This document shows, piece after piece, positions 53,660 to 58,196 of a stretch of DNA of 64,000 nucleotides. The DNA comes from Advenella alkanexedens (GTDB taxonomy: Bacteria; Pseudomonadota; Gammaproteobacteria; Burkholderiales; Burkholderiaceae_B), in NCBI RefSeq assembly GCF_019132845.1, contig NZ_JAHSPR010000005.1, forward strand, positions 124,001-188,000, written 5' to 3'. Below the pieces are notes generated by a model, which saw only the letters and a list, made by a program, of their open reading frames with translations, ran no database searches and was not told the origin of the DNA. Positions within the stretch are counted from its first letter, which is position 1. Each line of letters opens with the position of its first letter. Position numbers and translations under genes: made by a program.

Positions 53660-56587
53660 TTAATTAACTCGATCTGAAAAATTCAATTGTGTCCCGGTTC
53701 CTGCTTTGGTTTCCGATTCGGCAACCGGTGCTTTACGATAGAAACGCAGGGACTGGTGAGCAAGGGCAACCAGCATAAAGGTTGTTGCGCCCACAACGAG
53801 TGCATAAACACCAATATCAAAAAGGATAACGCTGGAAAGATGCAGCTTCCCGATGACAGGCAAGTAAATATCCCAACTGATGGCTGACAGGAAAGGTTGA
53901 CCTACCCACCATGCAAGCATGGAAGAGCCACCGGCAATTAACAAGCCAACGGAAATCCAGTACTGTGGCCGAACCCTTGAGCGTGTTTCAACCCAGTGAA
54001 TGCCACTGAGCATATATTGCAGGATGATTCCGGTTGCAAAAATCAACCCGCCTACAAAACCACCGCCGGGCAGATTATGGCCGCGCAACAGGAAATACAA
54101 TGAAATAAGGGTAATAACTGGCAGCATTAGCCTTCCCAGTACATTGGGAGCCAATAAAATACCTTTGGGCAAACTGTGCTCATTGGTGAGGCCATTGCCA
54201 TCAATGGTTTGAATTTCATGACGGTTTTCAAGGGCGTGGATACTTTCCTGTGGCGGACGGAAGCGACGCAGCAGCGCATAGACGGTAATGGCCACAATGC
54301 CCAGAACACTGATCTCACCATAGGTATCAAAGCCACGGAAGTCGACCAGAATGACGTTAACTACGTTATTACCACCGCCTTCAGGCAAGGCTTTTTCCAG
54401 GAAAAAGGCAGAAAGACCCTCTGGTTTATCGCGAGTCAGCATGATATAGACCAGTGCAGACAATCCCAGTCCGCTACATATTGCAATGGCCAAATCACGG
54501 AACCGGCGAATAAATGACCGTAACGGTGTTATCTGGGACTCTTCAATGACACGACGTGGCAACCAGCGCAAGCCCAGCAAAATAAGAACAACGGTAACCG
54601 TTTCAACCACCAATTGCGTCAGCGCCAGATCGGGCGCTGAAAGCCATGCAAAAGTGATGCAGGTAACAAGCCCGGCTCCACCAGAAAGCACCAGGGCACG
54701 GAAGCGATTGTACTTGGCCAGATAAGCCGCTCCTATGGCGCAGGCACCACCAACGGTCCATAGAAGGGCAAAAGCCGGATCAAAAGAAAACGGTTCTTTT
54801 AAATGCAACCAATTTCCACCAAGCAGCGGCAGCATGCCGACCACCACGGTAATTACCACAATCCACAATACCTGTGGTTGCAAACGTTTGCTGGAAAACC
54901 ATTCAAGCAGGATATAGGCAATGCTATCGATGCCATTCATGACGGCATCAAAAGACTTTCTACCATCAAAACGGTATAAAATCGGTGTCTGCCCGGGATA
55001 TGAGCGAAACAGGGGTTTAAGCACATATAGCAGGGAAACACCACCAACCAGGGCCAGGATACTCATAACGAGCGGAAGGTTAAAGCCGTGCCAGATAGCC
55101 AGGCTATAAGCAGGCAAGTGGTCTCCCAGAATGGAGGTGGCCGCCAGTTTGAGCGTTGAGCCAATGATTAGTTCGGGGAAAACACCGATAAGAATACACA
55201 GCAGAACCAGAACAGCACTTGGAAAAAGCATCCAGTGGGGGGGGTCATGTGGTTTTCGAGGCAGATCGGTGGCGGGTTTGCCAAAAAACACCTGAATGAT
55301 AAAGCGCAGGGAATAAGCAACGCTGAATGAACTTGCCAAAACAGCCAGGCTTGGCAACCAGTAACCGGCATAAGAGGTTTGGTTTACAAAGAGTGTTTCG
55401 GAAAAGAACATCTCTTTGGAAAGGAAACCATTAAGCAAAGGCACGCCCGCCATGGCGGCCGAAGCCACAATAGCCAGGGTGGCCGTGATAGGCATGGCCT
55501 TTCGCAATCCTGAGAGCACCCCCATGTCACGTGTTCCGGTTTCATGGTCAACAATCCCGGTTGCCATAAACAGGGAGGCCTTGAAGGTGGCATGGTTGAT
55601 CATGTGAAAAATGGCGGCAATCAGGGCCAGTTCGCTATTCAGACCCAAAAGCAGGGTGGTAAGACCCAGATGGCTGATTGTGGAATAGGCCAGCACACCT
55701 TTCATGTCCTGCTGGAAAGTGGCGGCAAAAGCACCTATGAGCAATGAACACATTCCGGCACCGCCAATGATCCAGAACCACTGGTCGGTACTGGCAAGCA
55801 CCGGCCAGAAACGGGCCAGGATAAAAACACCAGCCTTGACCATGGTAGCCGAATGTAGATAAGCGGATACCGGAGTTGGCGCAGCCATGGCATTGGGCAG
55901 CCAGAAATGGAAAGGGAACTGGGCACTTTTGGTAAGTCCGCCCAAGGCAATCAACACCAGAATGGGAATATACCAGGGGTGATTGCGGATCAGGTTGCCC
56001 GAAGCCAGTATTTCATTTAGTTCATAACTGCCGACAATATGGCCAATCATTAACATGCCGGCCAACAGGCAAAATCCACCTGCGGCAGTAATGGTAAGTG
56101 CCATGCGTGCACCGCGACGTGCATCTTGCCGGTGATGCCAGTAAGCAATGAGCATGAATGATGAAAGACTGGTCAATTCCCAGAATATGACCAGCTGAAT
56201 AACGTTGCCCGAAAGAACGACACCGAGCATTGACCCCATGAATGCCAGGAAAAATGAAAAAAATCTGGGTACCGGATCGGCTGGGTCCATGTAATAACGG
56301 GCATACAGAACCACCAAGGCTCCCATTATGGTGACCAGAAGCGAAAATAACCAGGCAAAGCCATCCATTCTGAATGTCATATTGACGCCCATGGAAGGCA
56401 ACCAGCTTATTGTCTGGACCAGTACCTCTCCGTTAAATACGGCAGGTGCGGCATAAATAACCATTCCTGCACAGACAAGCGCAATAATGCCAGCAAGCCA
56501 GGATTCCTGGTTTCTGGCATTATGAGGCAAAATGGCAGCCAATATACTGCCAAGGAAAGGGAGTACGACAATTAAAACAAGGGGCAT
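53660..56587 (-). CDS. mrpA: Mrp-type antiporter subunit A fused with subunit B
   Basis: This 975-residue polypeptide contains an MrpA (NuoL-like) part of about 800 residues and a C-terminal MrpB domain. That domain is marked by VITLISLYFLLRGHNLPGGGFVGGLIFATG and GVYALVVGATTFML. The MrpA half shows VIFWELTSLSSFMLIAYWH (TM5 Glu), KSAQFPFHFWLPNAMAAPTPVSAYLHSATMVKAG and HMINHATFKASLFM. Fused MrpAB is the norm for group-2 (pha-type) operons of proteobacteria. The complex exchanges Na+ or K+ for protons and supports pH and salt tolerance. It is the first gene of the seven-function cluster, 219 bp after the sigma/anti-sigma fusion gene. Confidence 0.95.
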   Translation of the reverse strand: MPLVLIVVLPFLGSILAAILPHNARNQESWLAGIIALVCAGMVIYAAPAVFNGEVLVQTISWLPSMGVNMTFRMDGFAWLFSLLVTIMGALVVLYARYYMDPADPVPRFFSFFLAFMGSMLGVVLSGNVIQLVIFWELTSLSSFMLIAYWHHRQDARRGARMALTITAAGGFCLLAGMLMIGHIVGSYELNEILASGNLIRNHPWYIPILVLIALGGLTKSAQFPFHFWLPNAMAAPTPVSAYLHSATMVKAGVFILARFWPVLASTDQWFWIIGGAGMCSLLIGAFAATFQQDMKGVLAYSTISHLGLTTLLLGLNSELALIAAIFHMINHATFKASLFMATGIVDHETGTRDMGVLSGLRKAMPITATLAIVASAAMAGVPLLNGFLSKEMFFSETLFVNQTSYAGYWLPSLAVLASSFSVAYSLRFIIQVFFGKPATDLPRKPHDPPHWMLFPSAVLVLLCILIGVFPELIIGSTLKLAATSILGDHLPAYSLAIWHGFNLPLVMSILALVGGVSLLYVLKPLFRSYPGQTPILYRFDGRKSFDAVMNGIDSIAYILLEWFSSKRLQPQVLWIVVITVVVGMLPLLGGNWLHLKEPFSFDPAFALLWTVGGACAIGAAYLAKYNRFRALVLSGGAGLVTCITFAWLSAPDLALTQLVVETVTVVLILLGLRWLPRRVIEESQITPLRSFIRRFRDLAIAICSGLGLSALVYIMLTRDKPEGLSAFFLEKALPEGGGNNVVNVILVDFRGFDTYGEISVLGIVAITVYALLRRFRPPQESIHALENRHEIQTIDGNGLTNEHSLPKGILLAPNVLGRLMLPVITLISLYFLLRGHNLPGGGFVGGLIFATGIILQYMLSGIHWVETRSRVRPQYWISVGLLIAGGSSMLAWWVGQPFLSAISWDIYLPVIGKLHLSSVILFDIGVYALVVGATTFMLVALAHQSLRFYRKAPVAESETKAGTGTQLNFSDRVN

Positions 56588-56806
56588 TTGACAAGGGGAT
56601 CAAAAATTGAATTGTTACAACCCTGATGATACGATATTTTCATATGTTACTTGTCTCAGATTTGCATAGAATTCAAAATATTTTTCGTATAAATCATTTT
56701 TCAGACAAAGTTGCAGTTATTTATAGAGATTTTCACGTTATTTGATGACGATTGTGATGAACTCATGACAAATCCGTTATTGCTCATGCCGCATAAGTGC
56801 TACTTA
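56588..56806. other. 219-bp spacer between the sigma/anti-sigma fusion gene and mrpA
   Basis: This AT-rich spacer presumably contains the mrp promoter on the minus strand. No strong -35/-10 pair, terminator or repeat was found, and mrpA has no obvious ribosome site. A promoter recognised by an alternative sigma factor is one possibility. Confidence 0.5.
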
Positions 56807-58123
56807 TTAATTACTCACATCAACCAATCTACCTTGATACAAAATAGACCCGGTTGGTTTGCCTGAAGGGGAACCACCAGCCGGTTCAAGACTGATTTGA
56901 AAAAGTTGCCCGGGCTTCACTTTACCCAACATTTCCGGAGTAAGCGTGATAATGGCATTCGATTTAATAGCGCCCAGTGAGCGATAGTCGTTGTTGCCCG
57001 TGTCTGATTGTGTCCAGATTTCCATTTCAAGATTGTCGGCAATGTTTTGCTGAATCATTGGTTTGATCTGTGCGATGCCTTCCTGATTAACTTTTACCAC
57101 CCAGGCAGGCTGGCTATTTTGCCCGGGCGCTGACAACACGGCAATCATTCTGGTCATATTGGAGGTGGATGGAAAAATAATCACAAGAAAAAGCAAGGCA
57201 GTCGCCAGTACCAGGCTGGATATTTGCCATAGTCTTAGGTTTTGGCTGAGTTTTTTGCTTAGTTCCTTGATGCGCGCCTGCAAACCGGAAAACCCGGACA
57301 TGTCATGATCTTGAATGGCATCAAGAATGCCACCGACTTCCTCGGTGTTTTGCATGTTGTGCTTGATGCTGCTCCATAAGCGCGGATGCAAAGGCTGTTC
57401 GGGCAATTGATCCAGGTAATGGGTGAAGTGATCCTCCCAGATCAGGGCAATGCTGGCTGCGGTGCTGTCCTGATTGAAAAGCTGAAGTACATAACGTTCT
57501 TCTTCGCCGCTTAGCCCACCCAATACATATTCGCCAATTTTTTCATTATCAATGTGATAAGGAAAATTACCCAACTTTTTGGATAAATGACGCAAGCCCA
57601 ATAAAATATTTTCCTTGAAACGGCCCAAAGGCATATTAAGCAGGGTGGCGGTTGAGGCTTGCTCACCTGAACTGAAATACATGTTGATCAAACAGCTTTG
57701 TGGCTCAAGTGGCAATTCTTCGAGAAAAGCATGAAAACCCGTATGTGGTGCGTGAGAAGCATGTATGTCGGCCTGCAAAAGACTAAGCGTTTCAACCAGT
57801 GCAGAATCCCTGTTTTGCAAAGTCGCCTGGATCTGTTCGTAATTTTGCTTGTACAGGACACCGATATGGTAGCGCAAGATGCTGTAAATCCATCCTTTGG
57901 CCGGACCGGCTTCTTCGTTATACGTATTGGCATTTTTCCAGATAGTGACAAAGGCACGCTGAACCGCCTGTTCCGCATAGTTTAAATTGCCAAAAATACG
58001 GAATGCCAAGGCCAGCATTTGAGGAGCATCGTGTTTATATAAGCTTTGTATGGCGCTTTTTTGTCCTTTTCCGCAGGCTTTTAGCGTCTTTTCATATTGA
58101 AAAGAAGTAGACTTGTTAAACAT
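56807..58123 (-). CDS. Single-polypeptide fusion of an ECF sigma factor and an RskA-type anti-sigma factor
   Basis: This 438-residue protein contains what are normally two proteins. Residues about 20-95 resemble ECF sigma region 2 (LALAFRIFGNLNYAEQAVQRAF, then KGWIYSILRYHIGVLYK). Residues about 135-185 resemble region 4 (LPLEPQSCLINMYF through MPLGRFKENILLGLRHLSKKL). Without a break it continues into an RskA anti-sigma factor: cytoplasmic sigma-binding segment IGEYVLGGLSGEEERYVLQ (196-214), TM helix about 299-317 and a periplasmic RskA domain. That domain runs from RMIAVLSAPGQNSQPAWVVKV to SLEPAGGSPSGKPTGS. Normally the SigK-type factor and RskA are separate, overlapping genes. The sigma half departs from consensus in regions 2.4 and 4.2, so DNA binding is uncertain. 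It lies upstream of mrp on the same strand and divergent from an SDR gene. Confidence 0.8.
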   Translation of the reverse strand: MFNKSTSFQYEKTLKACGKGQKSAIQSLYKHDAPQMLALAFRIFGNLNYAEQAVQRAFVTIWKNANTYNEEAGPAKGWIYSILRYHIGVLYKQNYEQIQATLQNRDSALVETLSLLQADIHASHAPHTGFHAFLEELPLEPQSCLINMYFSSGEQASTATLLNMPLGRFKENILLGLRHLSKKLGNFPYHIDNEKIGEYVLGGLSGEEERYVLQLFNQDSTAASIALIWEDHFTHYLDQLPEQPLHPRLWSSIKHNMQNTEEVGGILDAIQDHDMSGFSGLQARIKELSKKLSQNLRLWQISSLVLATALLFLVIIFPSTSNMTRMIAVLSAPGQNSQPAWVVKVNQEGIAQIKPMIQQNIADNLEMEIWTQSDTGNNDYRSLGAIKSNAIITLTPEMLGKVKPGQLFQISLEPAGGSPSGKPTGSILYQGRLVDVSN

Positions 58124-58196
58124 GTTCTTTTCCCAGTCTTTATATTTAAATTACCAAAATATTTTTCAAGTTTAACCTTAAAAACAATTTTATCGT

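Follow-up and report, generated by a model that had tools for sequence, protein, structure and literature searches.

The fused gene and its domains

The window, by which we mean the whole stretch of 64,000 nucleotides from Advenella alkanexedens analysed here, carries a minus-strand open reading frame at 58123..56807 of 438 codons and a stop codon, without any internal stop. The nearest named relatives of this genome are A. faeciporci (86%) and A. mandrilli (80%). A sequence-only reading had described the frame as an uninterrupted fusion of an ECF sigma factor with an RskA-type anti-sigma factor, and one frame over 56807..58123 is indeed what is seen. The domains reported in that reading, i.e. 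sigma regions 2 and 4 followed by an anti-sigma segment, one transmembrane helix and an RskA domain, are recovered as follows.

Sigma region 2 (residues 1-100; 57824..58123, minus strand) is recognised by Pfam, with Sigma70_r2 at residues 28-84 (3.8e-8), and by matches to ECF structures. Region 4 (residues 129-188; 57560..57739, minus strand), in which the recognition helix is altered to GRFKEN, is placed by NCBIfam, the family profile and the alignment. Pfam gives no region 4 match in the window protein even at E <= 1, and two Pfam region 4 models match 10/23 and 6/23 family members at E <= 0.01. The NCBIfam sigma model spans residues 3-180 (2.5e-28) and the NCBIfam anti-sigma model residues 196-425 (6.6e-13), each below its curated cut-off. 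The family profile matches the full-length sigma2-sigma4 ECF structures SigL (6dv9), R. sphaeroides SigE (2q1z) and SigK (4nqw). The fusion reading depended on a sigma-70 domain within residues 1-190, and profile searches do find one there. The window protein has sigma2 and sigma4 but lacks both sigma1 and sigma3, which is the ECF (group IV) layout.

A class I anti-sigma domain (residues 192-260; 57344..57550, minus strand) follows sigma4 after a spacer of only about ten residues (23 rows of alignment A1). It is identified by NCBIfam and by the residues G197, E198, L201, G202, W229, E230 and Q239, which are invariant across 23 rows. Residues 192-260 have no cysteine, so the zinc-binding anti-sigma motif is absent. 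A hydropathy scan finds a single membrane helix at about residues 299-319 (57167..57229, minus strand), with the best hydrophobic window at 301-319 and one clear peak in all 23 members. Net charge on the N-terminal side of the helix is +4 in the window protein, -2 in two members and 0 in one. The RskA_C domain (residues 316-427; 56843..57178, minus strand), presumed periplasmic, is matched by Pfam at 9.4e-13, and 22 of the 23 family members also match. No FecR family match appears in the window protein at E <= 1 in Pfam. NCBIfam, hydropathy and Pfam thus agree on the layout of an RskA-type class I anti-sigma factor: class I anti-sigma domain, one transmembrane helix and RskA_C. An AlphaFold model built on a three-sequence alignment (the window protein, L005 and L006) had a mean pLDDT of 35.5 and was set aside.

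Distribution of fused and unfused forms

Genera and genomes are denoted by g and G numbers, respectively, and loci by L numbers. FA is the fusion class of the window protein, found in Advenella, g25 and g39; FB is a longer class of 510-645 amino acids. FA forms a single frame in 10/10 Advenella genomes (the G009 copy is cut by a contig end), 8/8 genomes of g25 and 7/7 of g39 (interrupted in G220), giving a total of 25 genomes in three genera. Identity among the FA copies goes down to 26%, and some of them lie on single-contig assemblies (G218, G221). FA and FB together cover 45 genomes. This means that the fusion stands against the suspicion of a sequencing error, given that 25 genomes from three genera share the single frame. 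The interrupted frame of G220 (L069:7542-8838) breaks after 304 codons and its RskA_C part continues in another frame. Since mrpD on the same contig is likewise in two frames, an error-rich draft is as likely an explanation as decay.

FB is fused in all ten g3 genomes, five as one ORF and five as judged by equal open-frame lengths of both halves, in 7/11 genomes of g27 (G176 is split and three are undecided), in G161 and G162 of g24 (two of five g24 genomes examined) and in G127 of g18. Further sigma/RskA fusions, which the sequence-only reading had proposed to look for, are therefore present in three genera as FA and elsewhere in the family as FB. Beyond the family we searched 399 genomes of the order, of which 115 match the FA profile; among the matches listed three span both halves, all within the family. 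Of 369 genomes of the class 96 match, and among the matches listed only the window's own spans both halves. In both searches at most four candidates per genome were scored, weak matches stayed off the list, and a long-linker fusion of the FB type would appear as two matches.

Separate-gene orthologues in related genomes had likewise been suggested as a comparison, and they exist. At all 23 unfused loci chosen for a four-base overlap of sigma and anti-sigma genes the junction reads ATGA; unfused loci outside those 23 overlap in other ways. The window's own genome also carries a separate overlapping sigma/RskA pair elsewhere (G000 C11). Genus g18 holds both states, as G127 is fused and its sister G128 is unfused. 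PAVLGWTDH in the fused protein stands where the unfused sister has PAVLA-stop at the end of sigma and MTDH at the start of anti-sigma.

Additionally, a 678-codon frame was seen at L085:5043-7079 and L127:3317-5353, in two genomes of one genus. Pfam matches nothing in it ahead of a C-terminal sigma domain (529-664 in L085), and it is probably a chance open frame.

Origin of the fusion

In the sigma tree a branch with SH-aLRT 100 sets FA (24 rows) apart from the rest, and in the RskA tree a branch with SH-aLRT 99 does so (23 FA rows). Both trees are quick ones, with long branches and odd composition in five (sigma) and three (RskA) of the FA rows. G009 is absent from the 24-row FA counts owing to the contig end, and G220 from alignment A1 and the RskA tree. 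L081 and L082 of g24 are absent from the sigma tree as the matched stretch was too short, and L085, L101, L118, L120, L123, L124, L127 and L130 (the same as locus L050) are absent from the tree table.

A single clade of FA and FB, without g18, is not rejected (p-AU 0.261), and therefore we do not claim separate origins of FA and FB. The g18 pair G127/G128, one draft genome and its sister, would need at least one further change. The fusion probably derives from a gene pair overlapping by ATGA. Together with this overlap, the fused and unfused states of g18 show how one-component sigma proteins can arise.

Selection on the chain

We estimated dN/dS on nine pairs from seven of the ten Advenella genomes, the sequences of each set being of equal length; dS is above 1 in several cases. 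Omega was 0.01-0.06 for sigma2, 0-0.06 for sigma4 and 0.00-0.04 for the anti-sigma domain. The linker between sigma2 and sigma4 gave 0.04-0.20, the linker with the membrane helix 0.14-0.31 and RskA_C 0.04-0.18. Of all parts of the chain, the two sigma domains and the anti-sigma domain are held most strongly by purifying selection. With omega of sigma2 and sigma4 this low, the sigma half is no decaying remnant. Regions 2.4 and 4.2 had been called degenerate from the sequence; changes of DNA-contacting residues are real, but the word degenerate is wrong, as few parts of the chain are as constrained as sigma2 and sigma4.

Altered residues in the sigma half

Residues are numbered after E. coli RpoE. 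The 24 FA rows are related, with an effective number of about 12.6 at 80% identity.

Position 52 in region 2.2 is acidic in only four of the 24 FA rows and has lost the acid in 20; it is D or E in 64/64 proteins of FB and the unfused relatives. Because two FliA-like proteins in the alignment have Ala there, the loss is only suggestive. Position 51 is V, I or L in 21/24 FA rows. Position 143 is Gln throughout FA, against 0.81 Arg and 0.12 Gln by weight in the relatives, and position 85 is never Arg in FA, against 0.57 Arg by weight. At position 149, FA has M, V, T or L and the relatives Ala (a few Ser). In the recognition helix, position 172, which we take to touch the -35 element, is Glu in 22/24 FA rows, and 173 is Asn or Asp in 22/24. 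Position 178 is hydrophobic in all 24. Loss of the GT(I/V)KS pattern in the recognition helix is seen in FB and its kind of unfused relatives too, but these keep the acid at 52.

According to PMC7406223, the main role of the contacted residues in regions 2.1 and 2.2 is at the beta-prime clamp helices, and positions 149 and 178 are part of the -35 contact. For the anti-sigma contacts we used a set of 16 positions, i.e. 15 from Table 2 of that paper together with position 178. A permanent lock between the two halves was tested on this set: the mean hydrophobic change was 0.34 over the 16 positions vs -0.09 over all 170 positions, which is not significant (P = 0.15). As a set the 16 positions are no more altered than others (mean divergence 0.36 vs 0.44), with 51 and 149 among those that do change. 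The set favours neither a lock nor, clearly, a retained interface.

The mean net charge of sigma4 is -1.5 in FA vs 1.4 to 2.7 in the other groups. We considered this as a mark of lost DNA binding and rejected it; since the same count gives -2 for E. coli RpoE, the charge decides nothing.

Neighbourhood and upstream region

The gene mrpA, with an MnhB domain at the C-terminus by Pfam, lies at 53660..56587 on the minus strand, downstream of the fusion. The gap of 219 bp (56588-56806) is as the sequence-only reading gave it, with both genes on the same strand. FA adjoins mrpA in 10/10 Advenella genomes, in all six g25 genomes examined (of eight), where the gap is merely 12-36 bp, and in 5/7 of g39. 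In G217 and G218 of g39 the fusion lies away from mrp, the mrpA of G218 being about 21 kb off. No sigma/RskA frame was found near mrpA at 19 mrpA loci of other genera. The block around FA, comprising an M23 peptidase, small proteins, a TctC receptor and an SDR, is mostly conserved together with FA, so the linkage to mrp may be inherited gene order. The proposal that the mrp antiporter is a target of the fusion thus keeps its linkage, conserved in most of the clade, and is weakened as to the target itself by the 19 unlinked mrpA loci.

Two further observations concern these neighbours. In G218 and G217 (L066, L067) the fusion begins 5-6 bp past a TctC-type receptor gene, without adjacent mrp or SDR. 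In G003, mrpA and mrpD are each in two pieces (L051:10582-15527), unlike mrpA of the other Advenella genomes.

An alignment of nine Advenella upstream regions revealed a conserved 13-base element, GGTTAAACTYGAA, at 58165..58177 on the minus strand, which stands out against otherwise diverged upstream sequence. One exact copy is present in nine of the ten Advenella genomes (G004 is without), 32 or 41 bp before the fusion in eight genomes and on another contig in G009. The reversed pattern, used as a control, was found in two genomes, with one copy apiece. The element could be a control site; its single copy per genome rules it out as a regulon signature. AAGTTTA, the reverse complement of part of the element, precedes the fusion in 7/8 g25 genomes, perhaps by chance. 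No ECF-type promoter was seen by eye before the fusion or mrpA in the aligned or listed upstream regions.

Other sigma factors in genomes with FA

At E <= 0.01, Sigma70_r2 matches three proteins each in G217, G218, G220, G221 and G223 of g39. These are FA (interrupted in G220) and two proteins of RpoD and RpoH size, names given from size and score. G219 and G222 of the same genus have four matches each. This means that no ECF-type region 2 besides FA was detected in five of the seven g39 genomes, where a diverged sigma factor could escape detection. In these five the anti-sigma half of FA has no other evident ECF partner, allowing for such a diverged sigma. FA itself scores below the Pfam cut-off in G217, G218, G221 and G004. 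Among the listed proteins its Sigma70_r2 score ranks lowest in 24/25 genomes and second lowest in G002.

How the fused protein may work

Sigma and anti-sigma factors normally work by separating. The sigma half of FA is constrained yet altered, and so either it is freed by cutting or it is no normal sigma factor any more. Constraint on both sigma2 and sigma4 would be hard to explain if the sigma half were ballast.

We hold proteolytic release to be the most likely reading because of the precedent of IutY, described below, and because a member of the M50 (RseP-type) site-2 protease family is found in 8/8 genomes checked. There is about an even chance, in our judgement, that the fusion is a membrane-tethered pro-sigma factor activated by proteolysis. 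In such a protein the ECF sigma factor would be joined in one chain to its own anti-sigma factor, of class I and RskA type, with the anti-sigma domain between or on sigma2 and sigma4, blocking both, and with the single helix anchoring the unit at the inner membrane in the predicted topology. A periplasmic signal sensed by RskA_C may then lead to a periplasmic cut followed by cleavage by RseP. Such sequential proteolysis would free the cytoplasmic part, perhaps with the anti-sigma domain still attached, and the freed sigma would steer RNA polymerase to a small set of promoters. The recurring single frame, the grouping of FA in both trees, the match to full-length ECF structures and the five g39 genomes with no other ECF-type region 2 found (FA being interrupted in one of them, G220) also favour this reading; the altered residues, the low Sigma70_r2 scores and the lack of an ECF-type promoter seen by eye count against it.

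The main rival is that FA is a pseudo-sigma, because it has lost a residue kept by all 64 relatives and others that most of them keep. Its sigma half would bind neither core polymerase nor promoters and would be a permanent intramolecular partner of the anti-sigma domain. The whole would act as a membrane signalling protein with a different output, either a change of conformation or a fragment set free to bind some other target. The FA-specific changes at 52, 51, 143, 172 and 173, the lack of Arg at 85, the lowest Sigma70_r2 score in 24/25 genomes and the absence of an ECF-type promoter as seen by eye all point this way. Against it, sigma2 and sigma4 are about as constrained as the anti-sigma domain, and the extra hydrophobic locking at the 16 contact positions is not significant. 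Furthermore, Ala at 52 in the two FliA-like proteins means that this loss alone leaves polymerase binding possible, and the 24 rows represent an effective number of 12.6. We put forward only tentatively that FA is a pseudo-sigma, nearly invariant in sequence yet deprived of its polymerase-clamp and promoter contacts, the former pair being one membrane signalling protein and not a sigma factor.

It is rather unlikely that the protein works without cleavage, a signal through RskA_C and the helix altering the hold of the anti-sigma domain so that sigma works at the membrane or partly opened. The RskA proteins of Mycobacterium tuberculosis and Yersinia enterocolitica both inhibit and activate SigK, as stated in PMC7509140, which makes such a modulator possible, and the spacer of only about ten residues fits it. 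M. tuberculosis RskA itself, however, is sequentially proteolysed via RIP1 according to the same paper, and the AlphaFold model was unusable here.

A very improbable reading is that the anti-sigma half controls a different ECF sigma factor in trans, with the fused sigma half a mere decoy. The separate sigma/RskA pair of the window's genome could offer such a partner, but G217, G218, G220, G221 and G223 show only FA and the two matches of RpoD and RpoH size (a diverged sigma could escape), and the constraint on the sigma half is stronger than a mere remnant would show. The decoy role raised in the sequence-only reading is thus unlikely as a general one, since no second ECF-type region 2 was detected in those five of the seven g39 genomes. 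That an assembly or sequencing artefact erased the stop between two genes is next to impossible: one base would do at the 23 ATGA loci, and the lone fusion of G127 comes from one draft genome, but for FA it is already refuted by recurrence, as the 25 genomes come from three genera, include single-contig assemblies and carry copies with identity down to 26%.

Comparison with known systems

Fusions of sigma and anti-sigma factors are as such already known, as in IutY and ECF52. In the literature searched, which left most subscription journals outside, we found no report of an RskA-type fusion or of any in Advenella. FA is an inseparable sigma/anti-sigma chain in three genera, and in some genomes the sole ECF-like protein found. 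It thereby offers a natural test of whether proteolytic release is essential or a sigma factor can change its role.

In Pseudomonas putida, the fused sigma/anti-sigma protein IutY (ECF243) is cut by Prc and then by RseP, which yields the active sigma factor (PMC9249621 and PMC8999054). FA resembles it in joining an ECF sigma factor and a membrane anti-sigma factor in one chain with one transmembrane helix. The periplasmic part of IutY is FecR-like and the protein responds to the aerobactin receptor IutA, whereas FA has RskA_C instead. FA also differs in lying in an mrp/TctC/SDR neighbourhood, as far as near genes were compared, and in its lost sigma residues.

ECF48, ECF52 and ECF53 of Actinobacteria (e.g. 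SCO4117) have a C-terminal membrane anti-sigma fusion for which proteolytic release is expected, according to PMC8999054. FA shares this C-terminal fusion. These groups carry a zinc-finger domain, whereas residues 192-260 of FA are without cysteine.

The SigK/RskA pairs (ECF19 and similar) are alike in having RskA_C and a class I anti-sigma domain. A hydrophobic contact at position 178 is reported for ECF17, ECF18 and ECF19 in PMC7406223, and FA shares this type of contact in 24/24 rows. SigK and RskA are, however, two proteins, whereas FA is fused and has a different recognition helix and a different position 52.
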